A stretch of DNA of 64,000 nt, from the NCBI RefSeq assembly GCF_003012935.1, contig NZ_PUDR01000003.1:310001-374000 (forward strand), in the 5' to 3' direction. This stretch comes from Pannonibacter carbonis (GTDB taxonomy: Bacteria > Pseudomonadota > Alphaproteobacteria > Rhizobiales > Stappiaceae). This document shows, piece by piece, positions 3,791 to 40,476 of the stretch. Below the pieces are notes generated by a model. That model searched no databases and had not been told where the DNA came from. It saw only the letters and a list, made by a program, of their open reading frames with translations. How positions within the stretch are numbered: the stretch's first letter is position 1; each line of letters begins with the position of its first letter. The position numbers and the translations under genes are program-made.

Positions 3791-3892
3791 GTCATCCCCG
3801 CCTTGTGCGGGGATCGCGCCCCGCACGCAGGACAACGTAAGCCAGCCGCCAGGGTCTCTGACATTTGGATCCCCGCACGAGGCGGGGATGAC
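3791..3892. repeat. Intergenic palindromic element (24-bp arms)
   Basis: A 24-base arm at 3791-3814 (gtcatccccgcc...) is repeated inverted at 3869-3892 with one mismatch, enclosing 54 bases. It lies between the converging ends of cobT and the peptidase gene. It resembles the dispersed gtcatcccgg-type palindromic repeats of alphaproteobacterial genomes, and two further relatives with longer arms occur in this window. It could form a transcript end for either flanking gene. Confidence 0.7.
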
Positions 3893-3930
3893 CGTTGCGG
3901 GGAGGAGAGGTTCGCGGCGACCCCGCTGCC

Positions 3931-5976
3931 TCACGCGGCCTTGAGGCCGCGCTTTTCCAGAAGGGCGTTGATGTCCGGGCCGCGGCCACGGAAGGCCTTG
4001 TAGGCGGCGTCCGGGTCCTGGCGGCCGCCGGCGGAATAGATGTGGCGGTAGAGTTTTTCCGCCGTCGCCGGATCGAACACGTTGCCGGTTTCCTCGAAGG
4101 CGCTGAAGGCGTCCGCGTCCATCACCTCCGACCACATGTAGCTGTAGTAGCCGGAGGAATAGCCCTCGCCGGCAAAGGCATGGGCGAAATGCGGCAGCCG
4201 GTGGCGCATGGTGATCTCCGACGGCATGCCGAGATCCTTGAGGACTGACGCCTCATAGGCGGTCACGTCGATGCCGGACGGATCCGGCATCTCGTGCAGG
4301 GCGAGGTCGATCAGCGCGCAGGCCGTGTATTCGACCGTTGCGAAACCCTGGTTGAAATTGCGCGCGCCGAGCACCTTGTCGAGCAGGGCCTTCGGCATCG
4401 GCTCGCCGGTCTTGTAATGCACGGCAAAGCGCGACAGCACCTCCGGCTGGCTCAGCCAGTGCTCGTAGAGCTGCGAGGGCAGTTCGACGAAGTCCCGCGC
4501 CACGCTGGTGCCGGAGATCATCGGATAGGTGACATCGGACAGGAGCCCGTGCAGGCCGTGACCGAATTCGTGGAACAGGGTGCGGGCGTCATCGAAGGTG
4601 AGGAGCGCCGGTTCCCCGTCCGCGCCCTTCGAGAAGTTCATCACGTTGACGATGATCGGGCGAACCTCGCCGTCCAGCTTGTGCTGCGCGCGGAAGGCGC
4701 TCATCCAGGCGCCGGAGCGCTTGGAGGAGCGGGCAAAATAGTCGCCGAGGAACAGGCCGACGTGATTGCCCTGGGCATCGCTCACCTCGAAGACGCGCAC
4801 GTCCGGATGATAGACGGGCAGACCGTGCTTTTCCTCAAAGCGCAGGCCGAACAGGCGGGTCGCGGTGTCGAAGGCGGCTTCGATGATCTTGTCCAGCCGC
4901 AGATAGGGCTTCAGCTCGGTTTCATCGAGGTCATGATCGCGCTTGCGCACCTTCTCGGCATAATGACGCCAGTCCCAGGGGGCGATGGCGGCGTTGTTGC
5001 CTTCCGCCCGAGCGACCTCGGCGAGCTTGTCGGCTTCCTCGCGCGCGCGTTCCACGGCCGGACCCCAGACACGGGTCAGCAGGCCGCGCACCGCATCCGG
5101 CGTCTTGGCCATGGCATCATCAAGCTTGTAGGCGGCGTAGCTCGGGTAGCCGAGCAGGTGGGCGCGTTCGGCCCTGAGGGCCAGCGTCTCGGCAATGATA
5201 CCGCGGTTGTCTGTCGGACCCTCAGCCTCGCCGCGCGCGGACCATGCCTTGAACGCCTCCTCGCGCAAGGCGCGGTTGGTGGAGAACTGCAGGAACGGCT
5301 CGATCGAGGAGCGCGACAGGGTGATGACATGCTTGCCTTCCAGCCCGCGCTCCTTCGCGGCGGCTGCGGCGGCCGCGAGCAGGAAATCCGGCAGGCCGGC
5401 CCGGTCTTCCTCGGTCTCGAGCACGAGCTGATAGTCGGATTCGTCCTTGAGCACGTTCTGCGCAAACTGGGTGCCAAGGGTCGCCAGCCGCTGGCTGATC
5501 CCGGCCATGCGGGCCTTGGCCGCATCGTCGAGCCTTGCTCCGGCGCGGGTGAACATCAGCTGGTAGCGCTCCAGCACCCGGGCCTGTTCCGGGGTGAGGT
5601 CAAGCCCGGCGCGCTGGTCCCAAAGCGCAAACACGCGCGCGGCGAGCCTCGGGTTGAGCAACGTCTCTGACCCATGCAACGAGAGCTTCGGCGCCATCTC
5701 GCGCTCGATTGCCTGCAGATCCGGGTTCGTGTGTGCGCCGGTGAGATTGTAGAACGTCCGCGAGACCCTGGTCAGCGCCTCGCCGCTCGTCTCCATGGCG
5801 CGGATCGTGTTGTCGAAGGTCGGCGCGTCGGCCTGTCCGGCAATGGCGTCGATGTCAGCCCGGGCCTCGGCCATGGCGATGTCGAAGGCTGCGACATAGT
5901 CCTGCGGCCGGATGTCAGCGAACGGGGGCAGGCCGAACGGCGTGGACCAGGCAGAAAGCAGCGGGTTGTCGGACAT
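3931..5976 (-). CDS. dcp: M3-family peptidyl-dipeptidase (Dcp-like)
   Basis: A 681-residue zinc metallopeptidase of family M3 with no signal peptide, so cytoplasmic. The zinc motif HEFGHGLHGL is followed by SGTSVARDFVELPSQ and EHW, which match Dcp-type rather than OpdA-type members. Such enzymes degrade oligopeptides by removing C-terminal dipeptides. Length is normal for the family. It is a single gene with about 190 bp upstream to the divergent sdpR-like gene. Assignment to Dcp rather than a generic oligopeptidase rests on motif memory, so substrate preference is inferred. Confidence 0.88.
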   Translation of the reverse strand: MSDNPLLSAWSTPFGLPPFADIRPQDYVAAFDIAMAEARADIDAIAGQADAPTFDNTIRAMETSGEALTRVSRTFYNLTGAHTNPDLQAIEREMAPKLSLHGSETLLNPRLAARVFALWDQRAGLDLTPEQARVLERYQLMFTRAGARLDDAAKARMAGISQRLATLGTQFAQNVLKDESDYQLVLETEEDRAGLPDFLLAAAAAAAKERGLEGKHVITLSRSSIEPFLQFSTNRALREEAFKAWSARGEAEGPTDNRGIIAETLALRAERAHLLGYPSYAAYKLDDAMAKTPDAVRGLLTRVWGPAVERAREEADKLAEVARAEGNNAAIAPWDWRHYAEKVRKRDHDLDETELKPYLRLDKIIEAAFDTATRLFGLRFEEKHGLPVYHPDVRVFEVSDAQGNHVGLFLGDYFARSSKRSGAWMSAFRAQHKLDGEVRPIIVNVMNFSKGADGEPALLTFDDARTLFHEFGHGLHGLLSDVTYPMISGTSVARDFVELPSQLYEHWLSQPEVLSRFAVHYKTGEPMPKALLDKVLGARNFNQGFATVEYTACALIDLALHEMPDPSGIDVTAYEASVLKDLGMPSEITMRHRLPHFAHAFAGEGYSSGYYSYMWSEVMDADAFSAFEETGNVFDPATAEKLYRHIYSAGGRQDPDAAYKAFRGRGPDINALLEKRGLKAA

Positions 5977-35456: not shown

Positions 35457-35708
35457 TCAGTTCGCGGTCATGTCCTGCACCCGGTCGACGGGCGTGAATT
35501 TCGACTTGATGGCCGCGTTGATTTCCTCGGATTCCTCGTCGAGGGCCTTCAGGGCCAGGCTGAGCAGATAGGCGCAGAAGGCGCGGCCATCCTTTTCCGC
35601 CTCCCGGCGCGTGAAATAGATCATGCGCTTCAGCGACTCATTCGTCAGGTCGCTGTCATGGCCCGCCATTGCGCTCGGGCTGTGGGTGATATCGGCAGCT
35701 TTCGACAT
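35457..35708 (-). CDS. Small hypothetical protein (83 aa)
   Basis: An 83-residue acidic helical protein (AFCAYLLSLALKALDEE in the middle) with no signal peptide. I do not recognise a family. A strong terminator right after the stop supports that it is a real transcribed gene. It is divergent from the BTAD regulator gene; whether it belongs to the RiPP-like locus is open. Confidence 0.6.
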   Translation of the reverse strand: MSKAADITHSPSAMAGHDSDLTNESLKRMIYFTRREAEKDGRAFCAYLLSLALKALDEESEEINAAIKSKFTPVDRVQDMTAN

Positions 35709-35918
35709 CTGGATCCTACCGTTCTACTACTGGGCCTCACTGGACCGCTTGGCGCGCCCCGATAGGGCTACCATCTGCATCCTGCGGCGCGATCATCCGT
35801 TCGCAGCGTGAAACTTGCGTGATACGGTGACAGGACGCGGGCGCGAGTCAAGCTGTCACCGCGCGATCCGGAGGCTGAAGTTCATCCGGGGATTCGGGGC
35901 CTCAGCAACACTGTGACA

Positions 35919-37997
35919 ATGCCTGGACGACTTTTCCTGCAAAGCCTTGGCCCGGTGCGCATGTTCGCGCCGGGGGGCGAGCCGTTGTCGTTCAAGACGC
36001 GCAAGTCGCTGGCGTTGATCGGGTTTCTCCTGCGTCGTCCGGGTCTTTCTGCCACCCGGTCCGAAATCGCCGCGCTGTTGTGGAGCGAGGGCGACCGCAA
36101 TCGGGCTACAGTGTCTTTGCGCCAGGCCGTCTCGCATGTCCGCCAGGCTGAGGCGGCCTGCGGTATCCCGTTGATCGAGGCAACCCCTACCGGGATCAGC
36201 CTGCTCGGTGATTCCCTGACGACGGACCTCGACCTCTTGCAGCAACTGCTCGCCGGCCAGGTTCCCTTCGACGGCGATCGGCTTGCCCGTCTCTGGGGCG
36301 GTGACTTTCTCAGCGGCTTTGACGTGATCGACCCCGCCTTTGCCGAATGGCTCGGGCTGGAGCAGGAGCGGGTTCGCTCAAGCGTCATCGAAAAGGCCGT
36401 GAGTGCGCTCGAGGGGCTGCGCCGGTTGACGGACACTGGCGCGGCAACTCAGCGCGAGGTCATAGCCGGATTTCTTCTTGGGCTCGATCCGGCCAATGAA
36501 TTCGCCCACCAGACCTTGATCCGGCATTTTCTCGATCAGGGCCGGCGGGAACGGGCAATGCAGCAGTTGCGCGACTGCACGAGAGAACTGCGCAATCTCC
36601 TGGACGAGGAACCGGATCCGGCGACGCTGCAACTGTTGGAGCAGTCGACCGGGGAGGGCAAAGTCGTGGCGGATCCGGGGCGTTTGCCGCCGCCGGTCGA
36701 TCTTCCGGCCGACGCAGCGTCCCTGACTGCGTCTGCCGCAACGATCACCTCCGGGCAATCCATGGCGGACTCCATGGTTGATTTTCCGGCGCTGCGCCGG
36801 GACATCACCCTGCCGGTCTTGTCCATCGCCAGCCTGTCCTTCGAGCGCGAGGCCGATCATGTTGCCCTGTCGCTGCGTGACGACATTGTCGCCGGCCTTT
36901 CGGCCTACCGCTGTTTCGAATTGTTCGAGGCGGCCTACTGGATGGGCGAGGACGGAACGGCGCCGATGCGGGTGGATGGCGGCGAACTGGGCAGTTTTCT
37001 GCTGCGCTTTCGCCGCGACCGTATGCTGAACCGGATCTACGTCCAGCTTGAGAACCGCAGCAGCGGCCAGATCGCCTTCAACGAAGTCCTCGACCTGACT
37101 CTCACACAGTCGCGCTCCGAGCGGATCGAGGCCGTCTACCGCACGGTGAGCCGGGTTTATGGTCATATCATCGGCCGGCTGCGCCAGCGTCCCGGTCGCT
37201 CTGCGTTTTCGCGCTGGTGTCAGGCGGAGGCGCTGATCTGGGAGTTCAATCTCGCCTCGGACAGGAAAGCCCTGCAGATCCTCAGTGAACTCGAGCAGTC
37301 GCATGGCAATTTCAGCCTGATCTATGCCGGCCGCTGTTCGATCCTGATGAAACAGGCGCTCTGCTATCCCTATCCCGGCATCGGAAGCCTCGATCAGGAA
37401 GCGGTATTGACGCTTGCAGAAAAGGCCGTTGCCCTGGACCCCTGGCAGGTGGTCAACCACCGCATGAACGGCTGGACCCTGATCCAGTCTGGCCGCGCTG
37501 ATGACGCTGCACGGGCGTTCAAGCAGGCTCTGGCGCTCAACCCGCTCGATCCGATGAACACCATTTCCGCCGCCGAGGCTCTGGCGCATATTGGCGACAT
37601 CGGCAAGGCGACCGATCTGGCCATGCGCGCCTTCGAGGGCCTGACCACGACACCGCGCATCGTCTACGGCTATCTGGCCAACATCTTCTTTGCCTCGGGC
37701 GACTTTGACCAGGCGGCCGAGTATTCCCGCCGTGGGCCGATTGACAACATCCATGTCCTTGCTACCCGTCTTGCCGCCCAGCATGGCGCCGGTCTGACGG
37801 AGGAGGCGGCGGCGACACGGGCCATGCTTATCCAGCGGATCGGAACCCAGTTCGGCCGGCTTGATCCGTCGGCCCATTCAGCCGAACTGACGGCCTGGCT
37901 CGAGCAGGTCAACATGTTCCAGGCACCGGCAAACCGGGCGACATTCAACGCGGCGCTCGACACCTTGCGCGAGACACTCGGTTTGCGCCGGATGTAA
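35919..37997 (+). CDS. SARP-like (BTAD) transcriptional regulator with TolB-like and TPR regions
   Basis: A 692-residue regulator. An N-terminal winged helix of OmpR/SARP type (FKTRKSLALIGFLL, then RSEIAALLWSEGDRNRATVSLRQAV; about 25-95) is followed by a bacterial transcriptional activator domain (about 105-230), a linker, a TolB-like region as in some cyclase proteins (LPVLSIASLSFE, about 300-420), and TPR repeats (KAVALDPWQVVNHRMNGWTL and following). No receiver or cyclase domain is seen. It ends 20 bp from the convergent precursor-like gene, so it may activate the RiPP-like genes. GTG at 35913 is an alternative start. Confidence 0.85.
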   Translation: MPGRLFLQSLGPVRMFAPGGEPLSFKTRKSLALIGFLLRRPGLSATRSEIAALLWSEGDRNRATVSLRQAVSHVRQAEAACGIPLIEATPTGISLLGDSLTTDLDLLQQLLAGQVPFDGDRLARLWGGDFLSGFDVIDPAFAEWLGLEQERVRSSVIEKAVSALEGLRRLTDTGAATQREVIAGFLLGLDPANEFAHQTLIRHFLDQGRRERAMQQLRDCTRELRNLLDEEPDPATLQLLEQSTGEGKVVADPGRLPPPVDLPADAASLTASAATITSGQSMADSMVDFPALRRDITLPVLSIASLSFEREADHVALSLRDDIVAGLSAYRCFELFEAAYWMGEDGTAPMRVDGGELGSFLLRFRRDRMLNRIYVQLENRSSGQIAFNEVLDLTLTQSRSERIEAVYRTVSRVYGHIIGRLRQRPGRSAFSRWCQAEALIWEFNLASDRKALQILSELEQSHGNFSLIYAGRCSILMKQALCYPYPGIGSLDQEAVLTLAEKAVALDPWQVVNHRMNGWTLIQSGRADDAARAFKQALALNPLDPMNTISAAEALAHIGDIGKATDLAMRAFEGLTTTPRIVYGYLANIFFASGDFDQAAEYSRRGPIDNIHVLATRLAAQHGAGLTEEAAATRAMLIQRIGTQFGRLDPSAHSAELTAWLEQVNMFQAPANRATFNAALDTLRETLGLRRM

Positions 37998-38017
37998 CCG
38001 CCGCCAGACGGGCAGCA

Positions 38018-38338
38018 TCAGTTGCGCCCGCAAGCTGAAGCCGGCGGGGTTGCCGTTCCAAGGGTGCTGTTTGCGATGCCGTTGAGATAGTCTTCGTCGA
38101 CCCGGTCGAGCTTGGCCGGGTTGTAGCGATAGGGCAGCACCACGTGCCGTTTCGCGGACGTGTCGCAGACGACGGTGAAGTCGAACAGTGCGATGACTTC
38201 TGCCGGAACCCCGGCCTTGGCCAGTACGGCCTTCGGGTTGTCGATGAGGGCCTGGCGCCTGGACGGATCCGTACCGGCCTCGGCAAGGACACGTCCGAGC
38301 GCCGCGACTTTGCTGGCAGGCATCGGGAAGCGCGCCAT
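38018..38338 (-). CDS. NHLP-type RiPP precursor peptide (candidate)
   Basis: A 106-residue peptide with a strong ggagg ribosome-binding site before ATG 38338. Residues 20-70 match the nitrile-hydratase-like leader pattern: DPSRRQALIDNPKAVLAKAG, then VVCDTSAKRHVVLPYRY. The leader ends around DEDYLNGIA, leaving a small-residue tail NSTLGTATPPASACGRN with one Cys, two Ser and three Thr, the residues a YcaO enzyme could convert to azolines. There is no Gly-Gly cleavage site. It converges on the BTAD regulator gene; a YcaO gene lies 0.7 kb away. Family membership is from pattern recognition. Confidence 0.75.
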   Translation of the reverse strand: MARFPMPASKVAALGRVLAEAGTDPSRRQALIDNPKAVLAKAGVPAEVIALFDFTVVCDTSAKRHVVLPYRYNPAKLDRVDEDYLNGIANSTLGTATPPASACGRN

Positions 38339-38349
38339 CGCTTTTCCTC

Positions 38350-38397
38350 CTTGAGTTCGGGCTTGAGGTCGGGCACGAGGCCTGGCATGAGGTCTGG
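38350..38397 (-). repeat. Four tandem 12-bp repeats upstream of the precursor gene
   Basis: Four head-to-tail 12-base units at 38350-38361, 38362-38373, 38374-38385 and 38386-38397, with plus-strand forms cttgagttcggg, cttgaggtcggg, cacgaggcctgg and catgaggtctgg. They end 12 bases before the precursor start codon, just outside its ribosome-binding site. They could be regulator half-sites, a translational control element, or slippage-generated sequence. Confidence 0.75.
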
Positions 38398-38404
38398 CCA
38401 TCAG

Positions 38405-38424
38405 CCCCGCTTGGGAAAGCGGGG
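38405..38424 (-). terminator. Hairpin between the two small peptide genes
   Basis: CCCCGCTT (38405-38412) pairs with AAGCGGGG (38417-38424) around a 4-base loop, in the 106-bp gap between the 89-residue and the 106-residue genes. Without a T-run it is more likely a partial terminator or mRNA-processing hairpin that sets different levels of the two products. Confidence 0.5.
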
Positions 38425-38444
38425 CGTCCTGGCGCGGCCTTCGG

Positions 38445-38714
38445 TTACTCGGGCAGGATTTCGTAGAAGCAGATGCCCAGAGCCTTGCGGCCGAGTTCGG
38501 CGAAATAGGCCGCGTCGCCAGCTTCCACGCGGGCTGCGTCCAGATCGGCTGGGACGACGAGATGCACGCTGTCGACACCGTCAGCCAGCACGGTGGTGCC
38601 GGAGGTTGCGGCTTCAACGAGCGCGGCGGCTTCGCTGGCCTCACCGGTGTTGACCAGCTGACCGATGCGGGCGCCAAAGCTGACGAGCGAGTCACGGGTG
38701 ATTTCCTGACGCAT
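38445..38714 (-). CDS. Small protein, possible second NHLP-like peptide
   Basis: An 89-residue peptide starting at ATG 38714 behind an agagg ribosome-binding site. Its middle, SVHLVVPADLDAARVEAGD, resembles the H-x-V-x-P core of NHLP-type leaders, and DAAYFAELGRKALG parallels the leader end of the other precursor. The tail ends in GICFYEILPE, with a single Cys. It is first in the minus-strand pair. It may be a second precursor or a partner protein such as a recognition element; the homology is weak and by eye. Confidence 0.55.
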   Translation of the reverse strand: MRQEITRDSLVSFGARIGQLVNTGEASEAAALVEAATSGTTVLADGVDSVHLVVPADLDAARVEAGDAAYFAELGRKALGICFYEILPE

Positions 38715-39024
38715 GTCGAACCTCTGTCAGTCGCAAAGACCAGGCGGCGGGCATATCTGTCCCTTTGCCGCTGGCGCATAGGGTGCGCCGCGGTTTGCCG
38801 TGAGGTCTTTGGGCCCGTTGCGGGCCGGTGTTGGAACGGATGTCTGGTTGTTGAGCCCTGGCCAATGCCGGTGGACCAGTCCATGGCGGCAGTTCAGGGC
38901 CTTGCTGCCGGGCTGGCACCACTTGGTCCCCGTCCTAGCCCCTTTACCTTCATCGCCGCGATTGCGTTCAGCAAGGGGGGCTGTCAGGCTCCCCGCCAAC
39001 GCAACTGGCGGATGGTCCCGGGCT
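38715..39024. promoter_or_regulatory. Divergent control region between peptide and YcaO genes
   Basis: 310 bases separate the start of the 89-residue gene from the likely start of the YcaO gene and must hold both promoters. No consensus promoter stands out. The frame of the YcaO gene is open back to ATG 38800, but that stretch is Arg/Pro/Trp-rich and unlike the family. Confidence 0.4.
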
Positions 39025-40476
39025 GTGGAAAAAATTAACACTGTCTTAAGCGGAGGGGGTGGGCCGCTTGCGCCGGACAGCACAGCCTCGTCTTGCCTCC
39101 GGAAAAATCTTGCTCAGATCGGCGAGGTTCTGGGTCTGCGGGACACGGAGCCAAGCGTCTTCGGGTCAGTCTCCCGCACCGCGCAGCTGCCGCCGGATCT
39201 CGTGTCCTTCCTGCCGCTTCTGGCGGCCTGGCCGCTGGTAATCCGGGCACTTCCTGAAGACGGCAGCGGTCTGCATCTGGTGACTGCGATGTTGGATGCG
39301 CCGGCCAACAGTGCCACGGCCGCACCGGAAAATGGCTGGCGGGCCAATGCCTTGAACACCCTTCAGGCACTTGTCAGCGGCGGGCAGGGGGAAAGCCGGC
39401 TGGAAGCGCTGCAATCCTGTCTCGGGGAGATGGCCGAACGCCTCAGTCTCGTGTCCCGTGGCCTGACGGATCCGCTCGTTCATGTTCATGATCAGGGGCT
39501 TGCCGAAATTGCGGCCGGCGCCTTGCTGCGCTTCAGCCCAGGGCAGGAGCAGGCTCTGGTGCGCACTTACCCGGTTCTTGCCCGGCACTGGACCGGCACG
39601 GCGATTGACTGGAACGCCCTGTCGCCCCGCCGTCTGGCTGCGGTGCCGCTTGACGGAGGCAAGTCCGTTCAGCTTCCGGCCCTGGGGCAACTGATCGGGG
39701 AAGGGGCCTGGTCGGGTCTGCCCGGTCTGCCTCTGGCGTCCTCGGTCGGGACAGCGGTCTGGGGGGACCGGGAGGGGGCCTGCCGCAGAGCCCTTGCCGA
39801 AGCCGGCGAGCGCGACGCCGTGGGCCTGTGGTGGTACAACCGGCTGGGGATAACTCCGCTTGCCATGGGGGTGGCAGAGGAGGTCTTGCCTGAAATTTGT
39901 GCAAACTGGATATCTGCCCGTCAGCGCGCCACCCGGTTTTTCCTGCTTCCGAGCGATCTGGCGCAGCATGTTGTGATGGCCCTGTCCTGGACAGGGGAGG
40001 GGCGGATGGGTGTCGGCGGCTTTGCAGCCGCACCCGACGCGGCCGCAGCCTTGCGCTCGGCCTTTGCCGAACTGGTCCAGGGCGAGCGGATGCTCGATCT
40101 CCGGCTTGCAGCCCTTTCCGGCCAGATGCCCGGCGCCGAAGGCCTGCCGCCTGCGCTGGATCTGGCGCTCAACCGGGACATACGAACCGGGTTCCGGCTT
40201 GACCGTGACGGTTCTGCGGCGGCGACGAGCCTTCCGAAGGCCTTCACAGCGGATGCGTTGGCCACCAGTCTGCTGGACCGGGGCATGAAGGTTTATGTCC
40301 TGGACCTGACCCGCCCGGACATTGGCCTTGCCTGTTCCAAAGTTGTCAGTCCCGACCTGATCGACTGGCAGCCGCGCTTCGGAAGCTGCCGCCTCAAGGG
40401 CTCGATTGGGGCTGAAAGCAGGTTGCAAGGCATTGAAAGAGAGAAGGATTTCTCCAGCCGGCCGTTTCCGTTCTGA
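39025..40476 (+). CDS. YcaO-domain protein (TOMM-type cyclodehydratase-like)
   Basis: A YcaO-superfamily protein, 483 residues from the GTG at 39025; the frame is open to an ATG at 38800, so the start is uncertain. ATP-binding landmarks are LVSGGQGESRLEALQSCLGE (about residue 117) and SSVGTAVWGDREG with ALAEAGERDAVGLWW (about 260); DLTRPDIGLA (about 427) matches the C-terminal YcaO strand. It ends in PFPF, short of the PxPxP tail of azoline-forming members. YcaO enzymes use ATP to activate peptide-backbone amides. No E1-like/ThiF partner, TfuA or SagB-type oxidase gene is adjacent. It diverges from the peptide genes, its likely substrates. Confidence 0.85.
   Translation: MEKINTVLSGGGGPLAPDSTASSCLRKNLAQIGEVLGLRDTEPSVFGSVSRTAQLPPDLVSFLPLLAAWPLVIRALPEDGSGLHLVTAMLDAPANSATAAPENGWRANALNTLQALVSGGQGESRLEALQSCLGEMAERLSLVSRGLTDPLVHVHDQGLAEIAAGALLRFSPGQEQALVRTYPVLARHWTGTAIDWNALSPRRLAAVPLDGGKSVQLPALGQLIGEGAWSGLPGLPLASSVGTAVWGDREGACRRALAEAGERDAVGLWWYNRLGITPLAMGVAEEVLPEICANWISARQRATRFFLLPSDLAQHVVMALSWTGEGRMGVGGFAAAPDAAAALRSAFAELVQGERMLDLRLAALSGQMPGAEGLPPALDLALNRDIRTGFRLDRDGSAAATSLPKAFTADALATSLLDRGMKVYVLDLTRPDIGLACSKVVSPDLIDWQPRFGSCRLKGSIGAESRLQGIEREKDFSSRPFPF

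Follow-up and report, generated by a model that had tools for sequence, protein, structure and literature searches.

A conserved, RiPP-like locus (for ribosomally synthesized and post-translationally modified peptides) lies in the 64,000-nucleotide stretch of Pannonibacter carbonis DNA (family Stappiaceae; contig NZ_PUDR01000003.1, positions 310,001 to 374,000) that is called the window here. Its genes follow the order S-R-P1-P2-YcaO (Table 1): S is a small protein, R a regulator, P1 and P2 are proteins resembling nitrile hydratase-like leader peptides (NHLPs), and the YcaO is the only one in the genome (PF02624, E 5.3e-33, 115 bits). The substrate of the YcaO is likely P2, not P1, and the single Cys of the P2 tail is probably what the enzyme alters. 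The reading favoured here, with moderate confidence, is that the YcaO places a single-site Cys modification, a thiazoline, on P2 and that P1 assists recognition. An earlier sequence-only reading had placed a regulator, two small peptides and a YcaO at this locus, and all are present, the second peptide being P2.

Block-type YcaO genes occur in 48 of 87 genomes of the family (13 others have weaker YcaO matches only), and P1 and P2 are found in the same 48, with one additional weak P1 match in G084. In every one of the 48 blocks R, P1, P2 and YcaO keep one order and orientation, and household genes (e.g. for a CAP-domain protein and glycosyltransferases) recur beside them; vertical inheritance therefore looks likely. 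P2 and P1 are read in the same direction, 106 bp apart, with P2 divergent from YcaO and P1 convergent on R. Three genomes of genus g6 (G057, G039 and G028) lack P1, P2 and YcaO altogether; G057 retains S and R, and the other two show S alone. Given this joint presence and absence, P1, P2 and YcaO appear to form one unit, in agreement with the sequence-only reading, and S and R may have wider duties. Comparison of the window with its relative L070 indicates purifying selection on both small proteins (ratio of non-synonymous to synonymous substitution rates, dN/dS, 0.12 for P1 and 0.24 for P2), the P1 value being read with a dS near saturation (1.96).

The case for P2 as the substrate rests on its C-terminal half. 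Among 50 aligned P2 proteins (48 from the blocks and two from orphan P1-P2 pairs, a sample also used for P1, the generic NHLP of L125 having been dropped), Asp45, Asp48, Val50, His51, Pro55, Tyr70, Gly75, Ala78, Leu79 and Cys82 are invariant. Tyr84 is found in 49 and Pro88 in 48, and conservation reaches the C-terminal end, the tail having the form L(X)4L-Gly-x-Cys-x-Tyr. In P1, the N-terminus reads M(A/P)RFP in all 50 proteins (Arg3-Phe4-Pro5 invariant) and the body is conserved, and the tail varies in length and sequence without any conserved modifiable residue: four of the 50 have a Cys within the last 12 residues, and several stop short of the tail region. Between the window and L070, dN is 0.16 over residues 1-90 and 1.13 over 14 comparable codons of the tail (residues 91-106), in a single pair for which tail dS is not calculable. 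The Ser/Thr/Cys tail on which the sequence-only reading based P1 as a precursor is thus present in this strain and not conserved among relatives. P2 is the better candidate substrate because its Cys82 is invariant within a conserved C-terminus, whereas the P1 tail is variable. The two orphan pairs, L117 and L118, have no YcaO in the fetched stretch, and their genomes also hold a full block.

By profile, the NHLP-like leader attributed to the 106-residue peptide is present in P1, although its TIGR03793 match (E 2.8e-8) falls under the curated cut-off of 50.9 bits; a match to NHase_alpha (E 3.4e-5) is likewise under the gathering threshold. P2 has no TIGR03793 match and no family over cut-off (the best is DUF6950, with 13.7 bits against 27), and its own profile matches the NHLP structure 8tb1 weakly (E 0.24). 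Kinship to nitrile hydratase alpha chains and NHLP leaders is therefore seen directly in P1, and P2 is linked through P1 (profile comparison by hhalign, 98.2%) and through a set of single precursors (99.2%).

These single precursors come from a draw of 397 genomes across the order, in which P2-like proteins were found in 18, nine of them outside the family. Eight of the nine out-of-family loci (L179-L186; families f18 and f25) repeat the arrangement with R, YcaO and just one NHLP-like protein. In the ninth, L187, the YcaO is longer, and the NHLP combines a Gly-Gly end with a tail rich in Cys. At their N-terminus the single precursors read MARI (seven) or MPRL (one), comparable to the MARFP of P1; their C-terminus is ..LGCx(R/K)P.. 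or ..RGCR, the Cys being placed as in P2 and within the last 12 residues in all eight. Their residues 1-50 are nearer to P1 (49 of 50 pairs) and residues 51-101 nearer to P2 (50 of 50). In a midpoint-rooted YcaO tree of 54 rows, which included 19 of the 48 Stappiaceae block enzymes, the Stappiaceae enzymes from two-precursor blocks (100/100) form a group with the single-precursor set of f18 (99/95), L182 lying outside (100/98), and the two-precursor state therefore looks derived by duplication. P1 and P2 look like a duplicated, subfunctionalized precursor, in which P1 would be a paralogue that lost the Cys tail and still has the N-terminal portion of the single ancestral precursor. Part of the NHLP helix region is lost in some P2 proteins only, that of the window among them. 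A class-wide search with the single-precursor alignment matched five of 385 genomes, including that of the window; the other four matches are to generic NHLPs, and the stretches retrieved with them contain no YcaO. At L182 (1-15000), the block is flanked by open reading frames that, read by eye, resemble sulfite dehydrogenase/molybdopterin and sulfoacetaldehyde acetyltransferase proteins.

The YcaO reading frame is open from 38800; most relatives are about 450-500 residues long, and the start is thus probably near the GTG at 39025. Eight residues (E135, E138, E259, E262, R263, D264, E349 and Q352) are invariant in 38 aligned rows. We take them to be the ATP-site motifs, which supports the intact ATP site described earlier. 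The closest solved relatives of the YcaO profile are LynD (7.8e-46, PDB 4v1t) and TruD (1e-45, PDB 4bs9). The LynD alignment runs from residue 358 to the last, spanning the ELVERD..WWYNRL stretch and the C-terminal PF; LynD ends TPMPF and the window enzyme RPFPF. A C-terminal P-F/Y is found in 47 of 47 Stappiaceae YcaOs checked (L073 left out), 40 of which end RPFPF. The LynD-like catalytic part and the -PF end favour thiazoline formation, so the chemistry appears less open than the sequence-only reading had held. PxPxP has been called the motif of azoline-forming YcaOs (PMC12670281, cited from an excerpt, as are all PMC sources here), and the window enzyme has PxP plus Phe. The PF end is suggestive only, since according to the same excerpt one PxPxP enzyme, DapY, makes an imidazoline (PMC12670281). 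The YcaO was also considered as an S12 accessory factor and rejected (NF040716, 10.6 bits against a cut-off of 700).

From these comparisons we infer the modification of P2, its thiazoline nature, the part of P1 and the biological role. The C-terminal half of P2, with its HLVVP strand and L(X)4L motif, would present a tail of about nine residues to the YcaO, which with ATP would activate the amide preceding Cys82, and the Cys thiol would then close a thiazoline (-18.01 Da). P1 would assist recognition of P2 as a leader acting in trans. The product would stay a thiazoline, as no dedicated oxidase was found: SagB-type dehydrogenase, which is required for azoles and not for azolines, has no match in the genome (0). 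The tryptic P2 peptide ALGICFYEILPE has a calculated [M+H]+ of 1367.69 unmodified and would give 1349.68 as a thiazoline. Because the core is invariant and the block holds no exporter, a conserved role inside the cell or in signalling may be proposed in place of that of a variable antibiotic.

Several points weigh against P2 modification as described. No RiPP recognition element (RRE) was detected in the YcaO by sequence, although its first ~100 residues may hold a divergent one. A scan of the block genes and six neighbours found no E1-like protein, RiPP-type oxidase, protease or RiPP exporter, in line with the earlier remark that an E1-like partner, an oxidase, TfuA and an exporter are not adjacent. 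LynD-like sequence is no proof of azoline chemistry, as the case of DapY illustrates. P2 differs from typical NHLP RiPPs in having one invariant candidate residue and a non-variable core, and the invariant Cys could be functional without modification. Its fold model is weak (predicted local distance difference test score, pLDDT, 70.7; predicted template modelling score, pTM, 0.36). Finally, the NHLP-type helix motif is kept in at least 35 of the 50 P2 proteins, which weakens the idea of a leader in trans.

The same evidence bears on other explanations. That the YcaO performs a different chemistry on P2, forming a thioamide or amidine with an outside nucleophile, and that Cys82 is a neighbouring or secondary requirement, is rather unlikely. 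In its favour, 45 of 50 homologues have Ser, Asn, Ala or Thr at position 81; against it, Pfam scans found no TfuA among the four block proteins and six neighbours, the nearest solved relatives are LynD and TruD, and the Cys is invariant. P1 might instead be the precursor, or a co-equal one, with the YcaO acting on Ser, Thr or Cys of its tail. It is the better NHLP match at 33.5 bits, its tail in this strain holds all three residues, and P1 proteins average 1.84 Ser/Thr in the last 12 positions; the apparently unconstrained tail, the rarity of Cys there and the proteins that end before it nevertheless make this improbable.

Two further readings would leave P1 and P2 unmodified or incidental. 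In one, the YcaO would work in trans, its substrates being the genome's other NHLP precursors (on contigs C1, C29 and C30), and P1 and P2 would be unrelated accessories. The genome does have 12 TIGR03793 matches, 11 besides P1 and five over cut-off, as well as an NHLM exporter over cut-off; eight of the matches fall between 71 and 74 kb on C1, where GNAT genes adjoin them and that exporter is ~16 kb away. However, NHLPs over cut-off occur in seven of the 87 family genomes, of which only five (genus g1) carry the block, so the YcaO seems not to depend on classical NHLPs. Service to the C1 precursors was set aside, since 43 of the 48 carriers keep the YcaO without any NHLP over cut-off, and the adjoining GNAT genes also speak against it; trans action is very improbable. 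Sub-cut-off NHLP matches exist in most genomes, many in frames longer than 200 residues that are presumably nitrile hydratase alpha subunits. The other precursor loci of this genome (G000; C1: L264, L273; C29: L275; C30: L274), with their GNAT genes and NHLM exporter, resemble the loci of lipopeptide 'selidamides'. As far as tested, neither a lack of co-occurrence in related genomes nor a consistent pairing of the YcaO with a distant unrelated substrate, the findings named earlier as contrary to the RiPP proposal, was seen. In the other reading, P1 and P2 form a non-RiPP complex with a nitrile-hydratase-alpha-like fold, their Cys binds metal or haem, and the YcaO modifies something else. The P1 profile does match the nitrile hydratase alpha chain 1v29 (7.1e-05), but P2 lacks a nitrile-hydratase-type CxxCSC site and genomes have either both YcaO and P2 or neither, which makes a complex of this kind hardly credible; NHLPs also lack the CxxCSC site (excerpt of PMC4603692).

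Table 1. Features of the locus (positions in the window)
Feature	Coordinates	Strand	Remarks
S: 83-aa protein, no family match	35457..35708	-	Conserved neighbour of R; invariant Cys
CGTGA-N6-CGTGA direct repeat, 11-bp period; candidate regulator site	35807..35822	+	Lies at the divergent promoters of S and R
R: BTAD/TPR (SARP-like) regulator, 694 aa, GTG start	35913..37997	+	PF03704, TPR_19; adjacent in 48/48 blocks
P1: 106-aa NHLP-like protein, no conserved Cys core	38018..38338	-	TIGR03793 33.5 bits; 50 homologues aligned
P2: 89-aa NHLP-like protein, proposed YcaO substrate	38445..38714	-	48/87 family genomes
Proposed P2 core, residues 81-89 (ICFYEILPE)	38448..38474	-	Cys82 codon 38469-38471; putative core boundary
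L74-(X)4-L79 motif of P2	38478..38495	-	L74 47/50 (Ile in 3), L79 50/50
Y: lone YcaO	39025..40476	+	Probable start GTG 39025; PF02624 at 39382-40359; C-terminal RPFPF at 40459-40473

The regulator R has a BTAD domain (PF03704, 29.6 bits against a cut-off of 22.1) and TPRs (TPR_19, 31.7 bits), consistent with the SARP-like (Streptomyces antibiotic regulatory protein-like) regulator described beside the peptides; for an N-terminal OmpR-type DNA-binding domain, the match to Trans_reg_C (21.9 bits) is under the cut-off of 26.2. At L106, the regulator is in two pieces, each in a reading frame of its own (about 3833-5766). S, which was missing from the sequence-only list, also belongs to the block: it adjoins R in all 48 Stappiaceae blocks and in seven of the eight single-precursor loci. 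It was found in 55 of 66 loci screened (the window, 47 Stappiaceae relatives and seven single-precursor loci; the 11 misses are L117-L125, L182 and L187), always with its Cys (55/55), and in 51 of the 87 family genomes, including the three of g6. No Pfam or NCBIfam family matches S at E 0.5.

A CGTGA-N6-CGTGA direct repeat lies within 260 bases before R in 47 of the 48 Stappiaceae loci and, in the 48th (the split regulator of L106), just upstream of the first regulator piece. It is also present in six of the eight single-precursor loci and is thus conserved across families. Elsewhere the motif matches nine more times in 695,080 bases, one of these being that of the 48th locus itself; the window has two against 0.25 expected, so that a lone match would by itself not be notable. 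The repeat was not found at the P2-YcaO promoter, where a half-site occurs in one of 47 regions only, and a shared regulator site at that promoter was accordingly rejected. The 8-mers common to the S-R and P2-YcaO promoter regions number 5.3, against 2.7 in shuffles (46 loci). The position of the repeat suggests a possible autoregulation by R, and the earlier proposal that R controls P1, P2 and YcaO gains no support from it, as the conserved repeat sits at the S-R promoter and not at P2-YcaO.

Among the six neighbours scanned with Pfam, those upstream comprise two dehydrogenases and an ABC ATP-binding subunit that carries TOBE domains. The locus is not described in the open-access literature examined, as judged from titles and abstract starts, and the excerpts of PMC13083261 and PMC8120280 contain nothing on it.

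Several known systems share parts of this architecture. The catalytic domain resembles the cyanobactin heterocyclases LynD and TruD through to the C-terminal PF; however, the LynD residues before 358, where we take its RRE to lie, have no counterpart in the match of this YcaO. An RRE domain is reported for LynD (excerpt of PMC12455567). The NHLP azoline system MprC/MprE, as far as the same excerpt describes it, likewise combines an NHLP-type precursor and a YcaO with an L(X)4L motif a short way ahead of the core, and MprC requires NHLP helix 1 and this motif (PMC12455567). That system differs in the RRE domain of MprC, an oxidase (MprD), ten precursors and two to six azolines (PMC12455567), whereas the present locus has no RRE found, one invariant Cys, an invariant core and two complementary paralogues. 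Tandem NHLP precursors with a YcaO are also seen in the NHLP-Burk clusters of the thiazole/oxazole-modified microcins (excerpt of PMC4603692). NHLP cores are described there as hypervariable, but the P2 core is conserved and the paralogues here differ in the conserved half. Similarly, the stand-alone YcaOs of bottromycin clusters lack a C protein partner, although those clusters have two YcaOs, methyltransferases and another precursor type (PMC4603692).

A related clade extends the comparison. At E 1e-20, 55 of the 397 genomes drawn from the order have a match to the YcaO profile. A further twenty YcaO loci were chosen from these, approximately by score (some family members and three places with a better or equal score are outside this sample). 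R-like regulators occur in 17 of these 20 loci, haem-peroxidase-like proteins in 16 (the family being confirmed by Pfam in the one protein tested) and a small family, c66, in 13. With six earlier loci counted in, 20 c66 proteins were found in 19 loci, and all end Cys-X, though the profile that finds them includes this end and so favours such members; seven of the twenty loci lack c66, among them L244, with an unconfirmed candidate ending FGCR. Three c66 proteins were compared with Pfam and NCBIfam, and nothing passed a cut-off (best DUF3646, E 0.031); kinship to NHLP precursors gained no support (hhalign 3.0% and 0.2%). Loci of the clade (L119-L124, L239, L241, L243 and L245-L254) mostly lie near an animal-type haem peroxidase. 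In the YcaO tree, the c66-type set (22 rows, 99/97) stands apart from the NHLP-type set (27 rows, 100/98), deeper splits being weak. A C-terminal Cys common to two carriers that show no detectable kinship speaks for Cys as the target.

Tentatively, and at well under even confidence, a wider alphaproteobacterial class might be envisaged in which a BTAD-linked YcaO marks one Cys in the C-terminal region of a dedicated carrier protein, the protein-bound heterocycle serving as a conserved cofactor, redox switch or signal and not as an exported antibiotic. In the Stappiaceae the carrier would be split between trans recognition and the modified tail, and in the related branch it would end Cys-X, usually near an animal-type haem peroxidase. 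RiPP mining seeks leaders with variable, residue-rich cores together with partner proteins; at this locus a single invariant Cys makes up the core, the adjacent genes showed neither a partner enzyme nor a RiPP exporter, and the precursor is seemingly split. If P2 is modified, this would be a minimal YcaO reaction and a test case for trans leaders and for how a substrate is bound when no RRE is recognized, and the related clade would open the way to YcaO systems whose cellular function is apparently conserved.

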